Shown: positions 12,347 through 31,555 of the stretch, in pieces
Layout: every line of letters starts with the position of its first letter
How positions within the stretch are numbered: position 1 is the stretch's first letter
Origin: Acidobacteriota bacterium
GTDB lineage: Bacteria; Acidobacteriota; Terriglobia; Acidiferrales; UBA7541
Length of the DNA stretch: 32,408 bases
Direction of reading: 5' to 3'
Assembly: GCA_003224235.1 (NCBI GenBank)
Contig: QHYU01000079.1
Location: 1-32,408 of the forward strand
Position numbers and translations under genes: made by a program
The notes under the pieces: model-generated
Told to the model about the DNA's origin: nothing
The model's database searches: none
Seen by the model: the letters and a program-made list of their open reading frames with translations, nothing else

Positions 12347-13696
12347 TCATCGCTTTTCCGGGAGAGCAAAGTAAAAGGTCGAGCCCTTTCCGGGCTCGGA
12401 CTCTACCCACATCCGGCCGCCGTGGCGTTCCGCGATCTTCTTGCACACCGTCAAGCCGATTCCGGTGCCGGAAAACTCTTCTCGGCCGTGCAACCGCTGA
12501 AACATAACGAAAATCTTCTCGAAGTACTTAGGGTCGATGCCAAGTCCGTTGTCTCGCATGGAAAAGATCCATTCGTTGCCGCCATTTTTCTTGGCAGATA
12601 CGTGGACGCGCGGGAGTTCCGCGCTGCGATACTTGATGGCATTGCCGACGACGTTCTGAAATAGCTGTACCAATTGAGCGCCATCTGCAATCACGGTGGG
12701 CAGCGGATCGTGCGTGACCACCACGCCGCTCTCCTGGATCGCACCCTCCAAATTCAAGAGCGCCTGTTCCAATGCGGCTTCACTGGAAGTTTCACGCAGC
12801 TCCTTTCCTGTTGTCCCCACACGGCAATAGGCCAGCAGATCTCCGATCAAGAGCTGCATGCGATGGGCCCCGTCCACCGCATAAGCGATGAACTCGTCGG
12901 CGTCGGAGTCCAGACGCCCCTTGTAGCGTTTGGCCAGGAGCTGCGTGTAACTGGCTACCATGCGCAAGGGTTCCTGCAGGTCGTGCGCGGCGATGTAGGC
13001 AAACTGCTGCAGTTCATCATTCGAGCGCTTCAATTCCACCGACCTTCGCTCCCGTGCTTCCTGATGTTTCAGGGCTTCCTCGGATTTCTTGCGCTCGGTG
13101 ATATCACTCAAGATAGCTGTAAAGAAAGTATCTTCGCGGGTCTTCCAACTGGACAGCGAGAGTTCGAGAGGAAACTCTGTGCCGTCTTTTCTCCGGCCGG
13201 CCAATTCGACGGTCTTACCGATGACGCGGGCCTCGCCGGTCCTCAGAAAGCGATCCAATCCTTGCCGATGAGGATCGCGGAACCGCTCTGGCATGAGGAT
13301 GGTGAGTGGCTGGCCAATGATCTCCGTCGGGGAATAAGAAAAGATACGCTCGGCCGCAGGATTGAAGTAGACGATCTTGCCACAGCTGTTGGCCGAGAGA
13401 ATGGCGTCGTTTGCCGCTTCCGCAAGGTTTCGAAACTTCTCTTCACTTTCCGTGCGCTGGGCCACACGGTCTTCCAGATCTATCGTCAACTGAATTAACC
13501 CGGCATTGGTACGCTGCAATTCATCATGCGCTGCCCGGAGTTGCGCCGTTTGTTCATCGATGCGCTGCTCTAATTCCAACGACAGTGCGATCAATCCACG
13601 GTTTGTCTCGGCCAGTTCCGCCTGGAGCGCGTGAATGGTTTCCTCGGCATCCGTCGACGGTTGCTGGAAATCGTACTTGGACATTCCGCTTGCCAT
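12347..13696 (-). CDS. PAS-domain histidine kinase of the phytochrome kinase class
   Basis: The 449-aa product opens with a long coiled coil (~20-85), followed by a PAS domain (~85-205) ending in [12 protein letters not shown]. The dimerisation domain has His238 in AHDLQEPLR, the motif of cyanobacterial-phytochrome-type kinases. The ATPase domain has Asn352 in [14 protein letters not shown] (382-387) and GTGIGL (410-415). No transmembrane helix or GAF/PHY chromophore domain is present, so it senses something in the cytoplasm or receives its signal from partner proteins. AGGAG lies two bases before ATG 13696, and a second ATG at 13684 is possible. It follows the Rsb genes and precedes an Rcp1-like receiver, linking the partner-switch to phosphorelay. 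Confidence 0.93.
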
Positions 13697-13722
13697 CTCT
13701 CCTAGCAGTCTGCCGACTCCGC

Positions 13723-14769
13723 TTATGCGCCCTCGGCCGTTCCCGCTAGGTTTCCCGCACGCTTGACCACGACGACGGTGGCATCATCGGTCTCCCGAGC
13801 AAATGCGCGCAATAACTCCTGGGCGGCCACCGTGGCTGACGCCTCGGCGAGATGAGGAAAATCGCTCCACCGCCAGTGCGGGATCAGTCCGTCCGAATAA
13901 AGCACCATCACATTGCTCAGTTCCTAGCGGTGCTGCGTCACCACTGGACGCCGTGCGTTCAGTCCCAGAACTCCACGCGGATAGACGAAATTCATCGGTT
14001 CCGGACTGCCAAACACGCGGGCCTCGACGTTGCCAACGCTGGCAAATGTCAGCGTGGCCCGCCCCCAGTCGAATCGCGCCAACCCCATCACGACACCACG
14101 AGTTGCACGACAGGTGCGAGCCACCCCTCGAAAAATTTCGTCGAGTGACTGGTCAAAATGACGCTCGACGTATTGCCGCGCAGCCTGAGCGGCGCGGTAG
14201 GCCAACTGTCCGTGACCTAAACCATCGATCACGCCTACCAGTGCGCTCTCCCCCCATTGCTGAATTACGAAGGTGTCACCATTTACGGACATCAACGGGT
14301 AGGGACGAGTAGCGACGCCAAAGACAAGCGGGCAGGCTAGCGTAGGTGGAACGTCCAGTCGTAGCCATCGCTTACACACAATGCTCGTACCGGCTCCCGC
14401 CCGGGAAGCGACATCAAATTCGTCCATCAGCCGGTTAACCGTGCCCAAACCGCAGCCCAGGCTCCCCGACGTAGAAAAATCGTCGGCGATGGCCTCCTCC
14501 ACATTGGTGATGCCGGGGCCCTGGTCTTCGGAATCGATCTGAATTCCGGTCCTCCCATCTTCCTCGGCTCGTCGCAGCCGCAAGATGCCGTCTTTCGCGT
14601 GCTTGACGAGATTGGTGGCCAACTCGCTGACAACAAGCGTGATTTCCTCCACGGCCCGCTCATCGAAGCCGATTGCCGTGCTCATGGACCTAGCCGCCAG
14701 CCGGGCTGTGCCGAGATCGCCGACATCCGAGATCGAGATGGTTTCCTGCACCGCAGGGCGGTCTGTCAT
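13723..14769 (-). pseudogene. RsbT-like kinase / RsbX-like phosphatase fusion interrupted by an in-frame TAG
   Basis: ATG 14769 overlaps the rsbT stop (ATGA). The first ~135 residues form an RsbT/RsbW-type ATPase domain (ELATNLVKHAKD, EDQGPGI, SLGCGLGTVNRL). The next part is a SpoIIE/RsbX PP2C-like domain with DGLGHG and SVGNVEARVFG. A TAG at 13924-13926 ends translation after 281 residues. The same frame then continues for 66 residues with MVLYSDGLI and [11 protein letters not shown], the two missing metal-binding motifs of the phosphatase. The codon sits where relatives often have tryptophan, so TGG to TAG is a likely single change. Either the phosphatase is lost, the stop is read through, or it is a sequencing error. 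The intact gene would reset the RsbS/RsbR switch. Confidence 0.85.
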
Positions 14770-15179
14770 GTTCCCTTCCGCCACTTCTTTATCGTAATCT
14801 TAGTGCCTTTCCCCACTACGGACTCGATTTCCATCTCGTCCATCAGGCGTTTGGCGCCTGGCAAGCCAAAGCCCAATCCCCCACCGGATGTGTACCCTGG
14901 CTGCATGGCTTGGTCGATGTCGACGATGCCCGGGCCATGATCCTCAACAATCAACTCGAGCCCAACTCTGTCGGACCCATTCAGCACCCGGCACCGTACG
15001 ACCCCGGAGCCCGCATACAGAAAGACATTCCGTGCTAATTCTGAGGCAGCCGTAATGATGCGCGTAACATCCGTGATCCCGAAGCCCAACCTGGTCGCCG
15101 CTTCCCGAACAGACTTGCGCACGACTATGATGTCAGTTTCCGTCCTGAGGGCAATTTCTTCGGGAAGGGAATCATTCAT
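14766..15179 (-). CDS. rsbT: Anti-sigma-type serine kinase RsbT
   Basis: The 137-aa product is a GHKL ATPase of the RsbT class. The N box is ASELARNVFLYAG (Glu47, Asn51), followed by EDHGPGI (79-85) and GGGLGFGLPGAKRLMDE (99-115). In Bacillus, RsbT is held by the RsbR/RsbS stressosome, phosphorylates both on stress, and is released to bind its target. The gene overlaps rsbS upstream and the fusion gene downstream with ATGA-type junctions, giving the canonical order R-S-T-X. No RsbU phosphatase or sigma factor gene is seen in this window, so the released kinase may act on the histidine kinases encoded next, or on distant partners. Confidence 0.93.
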   Translation of the reverse strand: MNDSLPEEIALRTETDIIVVRKSVREAATRLGFGITDVTRIITAASELARNVFLYAGSGVVRCRVLNGSDRVGLELIVEDHGPGIVDIDQAMQPGYTSGGGLGFGLPGAKRLMDEMEIESVVGKGTKITIKKWRKGT

Positions 15180-15553
15180 GGCTTTTGCACCTGTTGGGAC
15201 CCATCCCGCAGGATTTCAAACGCCCGATCTACACTCAAGGCGGTCCGCGTCTTGCCCAGCGTCAATCCGAGTTGGGTGAGGGTGATGGCGACACTCGGCC
15301 GGATCCCGGTCAGGACCGTGCGTCCACCCATCAAGCCGACCATTCGCGTCGTCTCAGCAATCATCCGGGCGAAAAACGAATCCAGCGAGTCGACGGCCGA
15401 GACGTCCAGGACAACGCCCCTGGCTGTCGACCGCTCCATCGCCAGCAATACCCTCTCCTGGAGCGCCGAGACGGTTGCGTCATCCGGGTCGGCAGGCATC
15501 GTGACCATGAGGATGTCGCGGACTTTGATGATCGAAAGCCTTTCCTCGCTCAT
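15176..15553 (-). CDS. rsbS: STAS-domain stressosome protein RsbS
   Basis: The 125-aa product is a single STAS domain. It carries LDVSAVDSLDSFFARM, in which Ser59 matches in position the serine that RsbT phosphorylates in Bacillus RsbS, and the later block TVLTGIRPSVAITLTQLGL, nearly identical in style to RsbS proteins. RsbS forms the core of the stressosome together with RsbR and sequesters RsbT. Both ends overlap their neighbours by four bases (ATGA), so the three proteins are made in a coupled way. Length is normal for the family. Confidence 0.93.
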   Translation of the reverse strand: MSEERLSIIKVRDILMVTMPADPDDATVSALQERVLLAMERSTARGVVLDVSAVDSLDSFFARMIAETTRMVGLMGGRTVLTGIRPSVAITLTQLGLTLGKTRTALSVDRAFEILRDGSQQVQKP

Positions 15554-16431
15554 TGCGCATCTTTCCTACCGCTTCCATTGCCGCTAACCATCTGCAAGTT
15601 CAGAAGGTTCAGCGCCACGCGCAAGCCCGCCGCAAGCGTAGACCGCGTGGTGATGTTGCCCAAATCGACGCCGAGGTGTGCGAGCGTTTGCGCAATCGCG
15701 GGGCGCACACCCGTCAACACCGCTTGAGCGCCTAACAAGCGCACCGCAGTGGTCGTTTCGGCCAAGTGTTGGGCTGTGCGTGTATCGATGGTGGGAACAC
15801 CGGTGACGTCCAGAAGGGCCACTGCTGAGTCCGTTTCGACAATACGTTCCAGCAACCGTTCCATGAGCTGCTGCGTGCGTTCACTGTCGAGCGTGCCGAC
15901 CAGCGGCGCCATGAGTATGCCGTCCCAGATCTGAATGACAGGCGTGGAAATCTCAATGATTTCGCGCGCCTGCAGGGTTGCTTTCTCTTCCGCCCGCTTA
16001 CGCTCGGTCAAATCACGCATAACTTTGCCGAAGCCGCACAAGGTCCCGCCTTGATCGCGCAAGGCGGTAATCACCTGGTTCGACCAGAATCGTGACCCGT
16101 CTTTCTTCATCCGCCAACCTTCATCTTCAGACCGACCTTCCGCTGTCGCCACTTTCAGTTCCATTTCGGGCTTTCCACGTTGAACCTCTTCGCTGGGGAA
16201 AAAACGGGAGAAGTGCTGGCCGATGATCTCACTTGAGCGATACCCCAGGATGGTCTCTGATCCTGGGTTCCAACTGGCTACCCGGCCGCTGGTATCCAGA
16301 ATGATGATCGCGTAGTCTTTCATGTTGTCAACTAGCATGCGGAAGTGCTCTGCGGTCGTCTGCAGAACCGCGCCAGCTTGGTTCGCTGCCGAGGGCCTCT
16401 CCAACGTGTTCGCTTCTGTGCTCTTGGTCAT
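15550..16431 (-). CDS. rsbR: PAS-STAS stressosome sensor, RsbR-like
   Basis: The 293-aa product has an N-terminal PAS domain (~25-145; DYAIIILDTSGRVASWN, then WRMKKDGSRFWSNQVITAL, ending in RDLTERKRAEE). A short linker leads to a C-terminal STAS domain (~160-280) with STPVIQIWDGILMAPLVGT and DVTGVPTIDTRTAQHL. Thr217 lies where RsbR proteins carry a phosphorylated threonine. Bacillus RsbR has a globin-like sensor; here a PAS domain replaces it, so a small ligand, redox state or light-linked cofactor could be the input. The protein is cytosolic and should co-assemble with the RsbS encoded next. Its start overlaps the stop of a small upstream frame (ATGA). Confidence 0.93.
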   Translation of the reverse strand: MTKSTEANTLERPSAANQAGAVLQTTAEHFRMLVDNMKDYAIIILDTSGRVASWNPGSETILGYRSSEIIGQHFSRFFPSEEVQRGKPEMELKVATAEGRSEDEGWRMKKDGSRFWSNQVITALRDQGGTLCGFGKVMRDLTERKRAEEKATLQAREIIEISTPVIQIWDGILMAPLVGTLDSERTQQLMERLLERIVETDSAVALLDVTGVPTIDTRTAQHLAETTTAVRLLGAQAVLTGVRPAIAQTLAHLGVDLGNITTRSTLAAGLRVALNLLNLQMVSGNGSGRKDAQ

Positions 16432-16661
16432 GGTGATCCTCCTCTTTTTTGTTCTACGGTCCTTCTCAGATTCGATCCGGTCGATCTCTGGCAGAATCGC
16501 CGTACCCCCGCGCGGTCACGCCGCCGCCCCCACCCGGGGCAATTGTGACGTACTCGTGTCGGCGCCCAGACGGCTGAAACAACACCGAGGACGAGAAGAA
16601 GCACAAGCGCTGCACCGAACGCGAGTTGCACCTTCCGATTCAACAGGGACTTGCTCTTCAT
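16428..16661 (-). pseudogene. Fragment with a CHASE3-type membrane-anchor start
   Basis: The frame begins MKSKSLLNRKVQLAFG followed by a leucine- and valine-rich membrane segment, the style of N-termini of CHASE3-bearing histidine kinases. After about 30 residues the similarity stops and the rest is rich in Arg and Cys without protein-like pattern. It ends overlapping the rsbR start. I read it as the head of a sensor gene with an internal deletion or frame change, although expression as a 77-aa membrane peptide leading the operon cannot be excluded. Confidence 0.45.
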
Positions 16662-29722: not shown

Positions 29723-30307
29723 TCAACAGTCCTGTACTTTCTGCCTGAAATCAGCAAAAGAATGACAATGGCGCTCAAGCATGCCGAGGTCCGCTGCGGC
29801 GGCGATGCGCCGGGCCATTGCGGACGTGTAGCCAACACCCCGTTGGCTAAGCCTGCGCTCCAATTCCACCTTCGGGTCCACGAGTGCCTCGGGGGACTGG
29901 TTCAGCCGCAGCGTGGCGCGGCCGCCCCCTCTGTTTGACGGAATTGTGTTGATCGCGTTGAGGTCTCCTAGCAGCCAAGCTTCAATTTCTCTAACGACCA
30001 CACAGAATCGGACTCCTTCGCGAAAACTGTACGTTCTTCCGCTTATCTTGTTCTGCATTTGAGCCTCTAGCGCGGCGGGGTTACGCCCGTTCGAATCAAC
30101 CACCACCAAAGCCTTCTCTACGGGACCACCTTGAAACTCGTATTGGAGGGCAGCCAAATACGCGGGAAACTTTTGCATCACACCCGCGACGCCTCCGCAG
30201 GTATACGCTCTTATGAACGCGGCAGCTGATGTCAGCCTCATAATGAATTCAGAAATGGCGGCCTCATCGTACGTGCCTTCAACGACGAGGCCGAAGCTAT
30301 CGGGCAC
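29723..30307 (-). CDS. DUF4276/TOPRIM-like protein, partner of an OLD-like ATPase
   Basis: The 194-aa product shows a TOPRIM-like layout. An N-terminal strand has VVEGTYDEAAISEF (Glu10, Asp14/Glu15), then ALVVVDSNGRNP (Asp71), then VVREIEAWLLGDLNAI (Glu107/Glu109, Trp111), the last being typical of DUF4276 proteins. TOPRIM nucleases use these acidic residues to bind Mg2+ for phosphodiester cleavage. Its start overlaps the ATPase gene by 11 bases, so the two are co-translated. In single-chain OLD nucleases an ATPase and a TOPRIM domain are fused; here they are separate proteins, as in several two-gene phage-defence systems. It ends with normal length for the family. Confidence 0.8.
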   Translation of the reverse strand: MPDSFGLVVEGTYDEAAISEFIMRLTSAAAFIRAYTCGGVAGVMQKFPAYLAALQYEFQGGPVEKALVVVDSNGRNPAALEAQMQNKISGRTYSFREGVRFCVVVREIEAWLLGDLNAINTIPSNRGGGRATLRLNQSPEALVDPKVELERRLSQRGVGYTSAMARRIAAAADLGMLERHCHSFADFRQKVQDC

Positions 30308-31484
30308 TGCTAAGCGCCCCGGAGTAGAATAAGTCGCCCAGGCCGACTTCTTTTCTTTCGAGCAGTCCCCTCAGATGGTTCTTGTGCGTTGGTCGGGTGC
30401 AGATCGTTGCACCTTCGCGCTTCTCCACAACGAGCAGTTCGTCCAACTTGAACTGGTCGACCAGATAAGGCGAGTGAGTGGTCAAAATCACTTGGGCCCG
30501 CTGATCAGGTGGACGGGCCTCATGCTCTTGTCTGAGAATCTCGGCGAGTATTTCGAGCAATCTAGGGTGAAGGTGATTCTCGGGTTCTTCGACACAATGT
30601 AGAGGCGCTCCAACGTCGTCTGGGCTCAGAATGAGTGAAAGAAACGCCAGGAACGCGAGCTCTCCGTCTGACATCTGAAGACAAGAAACGGGATGCCGGA
30701 GAAACTTCTCTCTTGAAGACAGGAATACAGTGGATTGCTGAGTCGGAACCGTAAACAGGCTTTCTAGGTCAGGAAAGGCATCCTTCATAACTGCCTCAAT
30801 CCGGGCAAAGGACTCGCGGTGCGTCGCTTGAAGGGTCATCAACCACGACGAAAGGTTATCCCCGTGCTCCCGTAGGAATCGCTCACCCAGCATCTGGTTC
30901 ACCTTTTTCATGGCAGGGGGAAACGGGCGATGGAATTGAATAGCGGTGAAGAAAAGGCGCAGCGGGTTCCCCTCCCAGTCGGGAATCTCGTATTCCAGTG
31001 CCGAGCGGCTCGATTCGTTTATATCCGAAATCGTCCGGCCGTCTGGCCGAAAAATCCTTCTCTGACCGGCATCAGTCCTTACCAAATCGCTTCGCGTGGT
31101 ACCGGTCGTGAAAGTCAGTGACTCATCTTGGACCCTTAGGTTGTACCCCCGCTGATCTGCAACGATGCTGATTCCATAGTCCCATTCTGTGGTCTGAGAA
31201 TTTGGCTCGGTGCCGGGGAGTTCTCCCTGTAGCCGAAGGGAGAGCAAGTTCGAGTCCGACCCCTTCCAGGCAAGTTCCCAAAACCCTCCGACGGCTTGTA
31301 CGGCGTTCGGCAGGCCAAAACTTCCGCCGCCAGAAGGTAGCACCATCCGTGTCAGGAATCGAAAAACGTCAACCAAGTTACTCTTGCCTGACATATTCGG
31401 GCCCACCAATACGTTCACAGGGCCGAACTCCAGGTCAAGTTCCCGGATTGATTTGAAGTTCTTCACCTGCAGGCGTCGAATCAT
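30297..31484 (-). CDS. OLD/RecF-like AAA family ATPase (AAA_21), probable defence component
   Basis: The start at ATG 31484 has AGGAG four bases upstream; a GTG at 31496 lies on that ribosome site. The 395-aa product has an ABC/SMC-like ATPase core. Motifs are FKSIRELDLEFGPVNVLVG with Walker A GPNMSGKS (28-35), a signature-like MSDGELAFLAFLSLI (271-285), Walker B LHCVEEPENHLHPR (295-308) and the switch His337 in TTHSPYLVD. The middle (~60-260) is the variable insert of such ATPases. Partner genes with a TOPRIM-like product, as here, form phage-defence modules in which the ATPase senses infection and activates the nuclease. The DNA looks less GC-rich than its neighbours, which fits horizontal gain. 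Confidence 0.87.
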   Translation of the reverse strand: MIRRLQVKNFKSIRELDLEFGPVNVLVGPNMSGKSNLVDVFRFLTRMVLPSGGGSFGLPNAVQAVGGFWELAWKGSDSNLLSLRLQGELPGTEPNSQTTEWDYGISIVADQRGYNLRVQDESLTFTTGTTRSDLVRTDAGQRRIFRPDGRTISDINESSRSALEYEIPDWEGNPLRLFFTAIQFHRPFPPAMKKVNQMLGERFLREHGDNLSSWLMTLQATHRESFARIEAVMKDAFPDLESLFTVPTQQSTVFLSSREKFLRHPVSCLQMSDGELAFLAFLSLILSPDDVGAPLHCVEEPENHLHPRLLEILAEILRQEHEARPPDQRAQVILTTHSPYLVDQFKLDELLVVEKREGATICTRPTHKNHLRGLLERKEVGLGDLFYSGALSSAR

Positions 31485-31555
31485 AATTCTCCTCACGCAA
31501 GGGAGGACCTTACAGGCGAACTGTACAACCGTTTACGAACAATTTCAAAGGGTCG

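Follow-up and report, generated by a model that had tools for sequence, protein, structure and literature searches.

The window, a stretch of 32,408 nucleotides on contig QHYU01000079.1 of a soil-dwelling Acidobacteriota bacterium, carries a fused kinase-phosphatase gene that is interrupted by an in-frame TAG. A single base change from TGG to TAG, a nonsense mutation of recent date, probably created the stop codon; the gene is part of an RsbR-RsbS-RsbT cassette that was most likely acquired horizontally.

The interrupted gene and its operon

The minus-strand frame from 14769 to 13723 consists of 281 codons, the TAG at 13926-13924, 66 sense codons and a TAA. Its translation agrees with the first-pass annotation, which had described a TAG at 13924-13926 followed in the same frame by 66 residues with SDGL and ETDDAT. 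The tail past the TAG carries YSDGL and [11 protein letters not shown]. When the 66 residues alone were searched, against the 76 homologues described below only, they matched the intact fusion proteins with E values of 1e-14 to 9e-32. Because the tail by itself matches intact fusions, the frame downstream of the TAG is not a product of chance, and judged by the sequence the TAG is an interruption and not the natural end of the gene. The gene and its neighbours are as follows.

15550 to 16431, minus strand: RsbR-like PAS-STAS protein (Pfam)
15176 to 15553, minus strand: RsbS-like STAS protein (Pfam)
14766 to 15179, minus strand: RsbT-like kinase (Pfam), its stop overlapping the start of the fusion gene (ATGA)
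13723 to 14769, minus strand: full frame of the RsbT-like kinase/RsbX-SpoIIE-type PP2C fusion, 348 codons plus TAA, broken at codon 282 (translation, Pfam, 76 uninterrupted homologues)
13924 to 13926, minus strand: in-frame TAG, codon 282, at a conserved Trp position
12347 to 13696, minus strand: PAS histidine kinase, probable output, with a [15 protein letters not shown] linker in its N-terminus, which is part of the shared cassette
13449 to 16447, minus strand: 3.0-kb RsbR-S-T-fusion cassette

The genes for R, S and T come first and the phosphatase last (16431-13723), and they overlap or nearly abut, as in one operon; three response-regulator genes follow the PAS histidine kinase. Gene content and order identify an RsbRST-type signalling module in which the feedback phosphatase and a second kinase domain form one protein. 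Phosphatases of the RsbX type are established to reset the stressosome, removing phosphate from RsbR and RsbS (PMC9237108), and by analogy the fusion of the window would act likewise. Elsewhere in the window (29726-31496) a DUF4276 gene adjoins a gene for an AAA_21 (OLD/AbiEii-like) ATPase; the two look like a mobile or defence-type pair.

Domains and the expected consequences of the stop codon

The following features of the fusion gene were assigned from Pfam, structural comparison and alignment.

14359 to 14748, minus strand: HATPase (RsbT/SpoIIAB-like) kinase domain, intact (Pfam PF13581, HATPase_c_2, E 1e-14; Foldseek match to SpoIIAB)
13750 to 14328, minus strand: PP2C (SpoIIE/RsbX-type) domain, cut by the TAG (Pfam PF07228, SpoIIE; PDB 3zt9 and 3w40)
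13726 to 13923, minus strand: 66-codon tail past the TAG with two core strands, a helix and the SDG and DD motifs (secondary structure of the model; tail-only BLAST)
13891 to 13893, minus strand: codon of Asp293 (SDG motif), an invariant metal-ligand position past the TAG (alignment to the SpoIIE SDG motif)
13783 to 13788, minus strand: codons of Asp328-Asp329 (DD motif), invariant, past the TAG (alignment to the SpoIIE DD motif)

The kinase half scored above the Pfam cut-off and has a HATPase fold with an N box and a DxGxG motif, in which E49, N53, D82 and G84 are invariant. PF07228 was recognised only when the frame was read through the TAG. The first PP2C motifs, GD (D165) and DGxGHG (D182), are present upstream of the TAG and invariant. 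The SDG and DD metal-ligand motifs are in frame but past the TAG and, under the standard code, are absent from the translated product. Counted over 77 fusions, D165, D182, D293, D328 and D329 are invariant in every one.

The read-through frame was modelled with AlphaFold from 42 natural sequences, which gave a pLDDT of 91.9 and a pTM of 0.87. Foldseek matched the model to Moorella 3zt9 with a TM score of 0.94 and to B. subtilis RsbX (3w40) with 0.82, both taken over the target, and its other half to SpoIIAB. These matches and the two Pfam domains agree with the domains named in the first-pass annotation, an RsbT-like kinase and an RsbX-type phosphatase. In the model the TAG falls directly after the strand of residues 278-281, and the strands 287-291 and 330-337 with the helix between them are removed. 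In an alignment with SpoIIE, D293 and the DD pair fall on its SDG and DD motifs, whose D746 and D795 bind metal (PMC8080068); alignment and model thus bear out the suggested loss of metal-binding motifs behind the TAG. Because the TAG removes two core strands and these metal-ligand motifs, the phosphatase activity of the encoded product is expected to be lost.

In the proposed mechanism a G to A change on the coding strand would turn TGG into TAG, and the product would end at residue 281. The whole HATPase kinase half would be retained, but only some two thirds of the PP2C domain, and the lack of two core strands and of both the SDG and the DD motif should abolish phosphatase activity. Provided that the kinase half is still produced and folds, resetting of phospho-STAS proteins would fall to the genome's other phosphatase alone, if they are reset at all, and the switch might lose its reset step.

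That other phosphatase belongs to a second module on another contig (L166 822-4749, contig C232), which, named from sequence, comprises RsbR, RsbS, RsbT, a separate phosphatase, a histidine kinase and a LuxR-type regulator. The separate phosphatase is intact with SDG and DD present, shares about 31% identity with the fused phosphatase and might in principle substitute for it. The first-pass interpretation of a switch deprived of its reset is partly supported: what stands is the identity of the domains, the Trp that relatives encode at this site and the removal of metal ligands.

Relatives, probable transfer of the cassette and age of the stop codon

A single-sequence scan of genome contigs gave no match, and an alignment-based scan of public genomes then yielded 80 related loci (L073-L152) from many bacterial phyla and some archaea. 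The kinase-PP2C fusion was uninterrupted in 76 of them. In the column of the TAG, Trp is present in every one of the 30 homologues that are at least about 45% identical and in 55 of the 76 overall, and none of the 76 has a stop there. The nearest homologue is L073 (JABCYV010000031.1), from an Acidobacteria MAG, with 84% amino acid identity; it has TGG at codon 282, in the context CAC CGC TGG GCG compared with CAC CGC TAG GAA in the window. The TGG of L073 and the Trp of the 30 closest homologues answer the question whether relatives have a Trp codon at this place, and the single G to A step from TGG proposed earlier accounts for the TAG.

Two of the 80 loci have a break elsewhere in this gene, a deletion in L123 and a frameshift in L094, both in the kinase half. 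Two further loci without a full fusion (L088 and L102) reach near a contig or locus end and are probably cut off there. In QHYQ01000210.1 (G029; L007 1287-2070/L123 1516-2300), from another Acidobacteria MAG, about 90 codons of the kinase half are lost and the frame is changed; the phosphatase half is still open, the mirror image of the lesion in the window.

The cassette is 88% identical in nucleotides and almost gap-free to positions 2716-5713 of L073, with unrelated flanks. In the same two genomes rpoB showed mostly about 77% nucleotide and 78.5% protein identity over the part compared, and the matches of a beta-glucosidase-like protein of the window in the genome of L073 were only 26-37% identical. 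Because the cassette is so much closer to L073 than rpoB is and its flanks are unrelated, it has most likely moved horizontally, as judged from these identities.

Inside the histidine kinase gene, some 83 codons from its start, the cassette breaks off sharply behind the segment [23 protein letters not shown]. This N-terminal part of the histidine kinase (13449-13696) contains a linker motif, ELxETNRGxxALxxEL. A related motif, E/D-TN-R/Q/K-G-x-x-AL, was found in genes downstream of the fusion in 46 of 76 loci, and in none of the 76 in the 1.8 kb upstream of the fusion or on the other strand. By analogy with RsbT and RsbU, for which a linker mechanism has been described (PMC12143880), the motif is a candidate contact or docking site for the RsbT-like kinase.

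Comparison of the window with L073 gave a dN/dS of 0.25-0.29 upstream of the TAG and nominally 0.73 downstream, or 0.44 without the last 12 codons (Fisher test on codon positions, p = 0.05). Relaxed constraint as a reading of the raw dN/dS was rejected: when the differences were polarised with 30 outgroups, most changes fell on the L073 branch or in the unconserved C-terminal extension. In the conserved tail (283-336) nearly all differences lie on the L073 branch, and no more than about 2 residues are derived on the branch of the window. A tail evolving neutrally from the split onwards should have gathered about 16 changes, as calculated from a synonymous divergence of 0.27, halved, over about 120 sites; as a rough estimate, the probability of 2 or fewer is about 2e-5. 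Because of this deficit the TAG appears to be young, and by this rough estimate it cannot be old. A long-decayed pseudogene was rejected as well, since changes at the conserved sites of the tail are not in excess on the branch of the window. The absence of tail decay fits a young stop, a strain variant, a consensus error or a tail that is still translated.

Explanations for the stop codon and comparison with known systems

A consensus base error or a minority-strain variant in a metagenome-type assembly, with the gene intact in most cells, is an unlikely though serious alternative. It would account for exactly one disabling change in a gene with an undecayed tail and all catalytic motifs kept, and the genome is a draft of 237 contigs. 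On the other hand, we estimate that stop-creating consensus errors are rare compared with true nonsense alleles, and the scanned genes of the window included no other that was obviously broken.

Functional bypass, by amber readthrough or by reinitiation to give a full-length or two-piece phosphatase, is improbable. The tail was under constraint up to the present, but a recent mutation explains this equally well, and the 76 homologues without a stop at this site speak against it. The search for a suppressor tRNA weighs against suppressor readthrough, readthrough being an alternative raised in the first-pass annotation. ARAGORN assigned a CUA anticodon to none of the 43 Rfam tRNA hits of the genome, a list that is probably incomplete with some expected tRNAs missing; one hit left uncalled by ARAGORN reads ACG by eye. 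Two pattern searches of the genome for CUA loops revealed no tRNA of this kind either, and a suppressor tRNA was rejected on these standard anticodons. A pyrrolysine system was likewise rejected: PylS had no match above cut-off in the genome, only sub-threshold matches as in control genomes. Separately, two class-II tRNAs with a long variable arm (L162, G000 C69:11644-11736, and L163, C209:25066-25151) were called by ARAGORN with the anticodons GTT (Asn) and GCC (Gly), which are unusual for Ser/Leu-type bodies.

Reinitiation is conceivable from the sequence at the following site.

13906 to 13911, minus strand: candidate reinitiation starts, in-frame GTG and ATG, 12-15 nt past the TAG

An AGGA overlaps the TAG and precedes the in-frame GTG by 10 nt and the ATG by 13 nt, and L073 lacks AGGA at this place. 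Yet the spacing between AGGA and the starts is longer than usual. We know of no split PP2C.

Selected loss, in which the truncated protein would bias the switch as a kinase or adaptor devoid of phosphatase, is just as improbable as bypass. The intact kinase half (Pfam) would suit it, G029 has lost the other half (the kinase) of the same gene, and there are precedents in E. coli RssB, where part of the PPM domain is missing and phosphatase activity is absent (PMC12143880), and in selected sigB-operon alleles of Listeria (PMC13068326). But the TAG occurs in one genome only, with no sign of an old or shared allele. Least probable of all is a functional TAG that yields a kinase with a phosphatase stub and, by reinitiation or readthrough, a C-terminal fragment of about 62 residues, with activity restored in trans or at low dose; translation would then set the reset rate.

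If the TAG is the nonsense allele that we favor, the window holds a small natural experiment, in which a stressosome-type cassette loses its fused phosphatase and keeps its kinase and output genes while a second module is intact. Such a case suggests that regulators of this type can disappear step by step once they have been transferred horizontally, and it leaves the picture of how the switch works unchanged.

The phosphatase gene of the window follows RsbRST, an arrangement shared with the RSTX modules known from Vibrio and others (PMC9237108). Its read-through frame shares the PP2C/SpoIIE fold with the RsbX feedback phosphatases of B. subtilis (3w40) and Moorella (3zt9), but it is fused behind a second RsbT-like kinase domain, and its two last motifs lie past a stop codon. 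The intact kinase-PP2C fusions among L073-L152 have the same architecture and the same position downstream of RsbT, and many also share the downstream linker-bearing effector; they differ in being uninterrupted, and their codon 282 encodes Trp or another amino acid. RssB resembles the predicted product in being a PPM-family domain without part of its fold, yet it is a fixed functional adaptor, while the window has a single recent allele. A close parallel to the lesion itself is the natural rsbU Q317* allele of Listeria monocytogenes, which removes the C-terminal Mn site and amounts to a loss of function (PMC13068326). There, too, a PPM phosphatase from this pathway loses its C-terminal metal site to a late nonsense codon, although the gene is RsbU and not an RsbX-type fusion, and the loss of function was tested in Listeria. 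Taken together, the TAG most likely represents nothing mechanistically new, but an ordinary, recent loss-of-function mutation, to which this published Listeria allele is comparable, or else a base error in the assembly.
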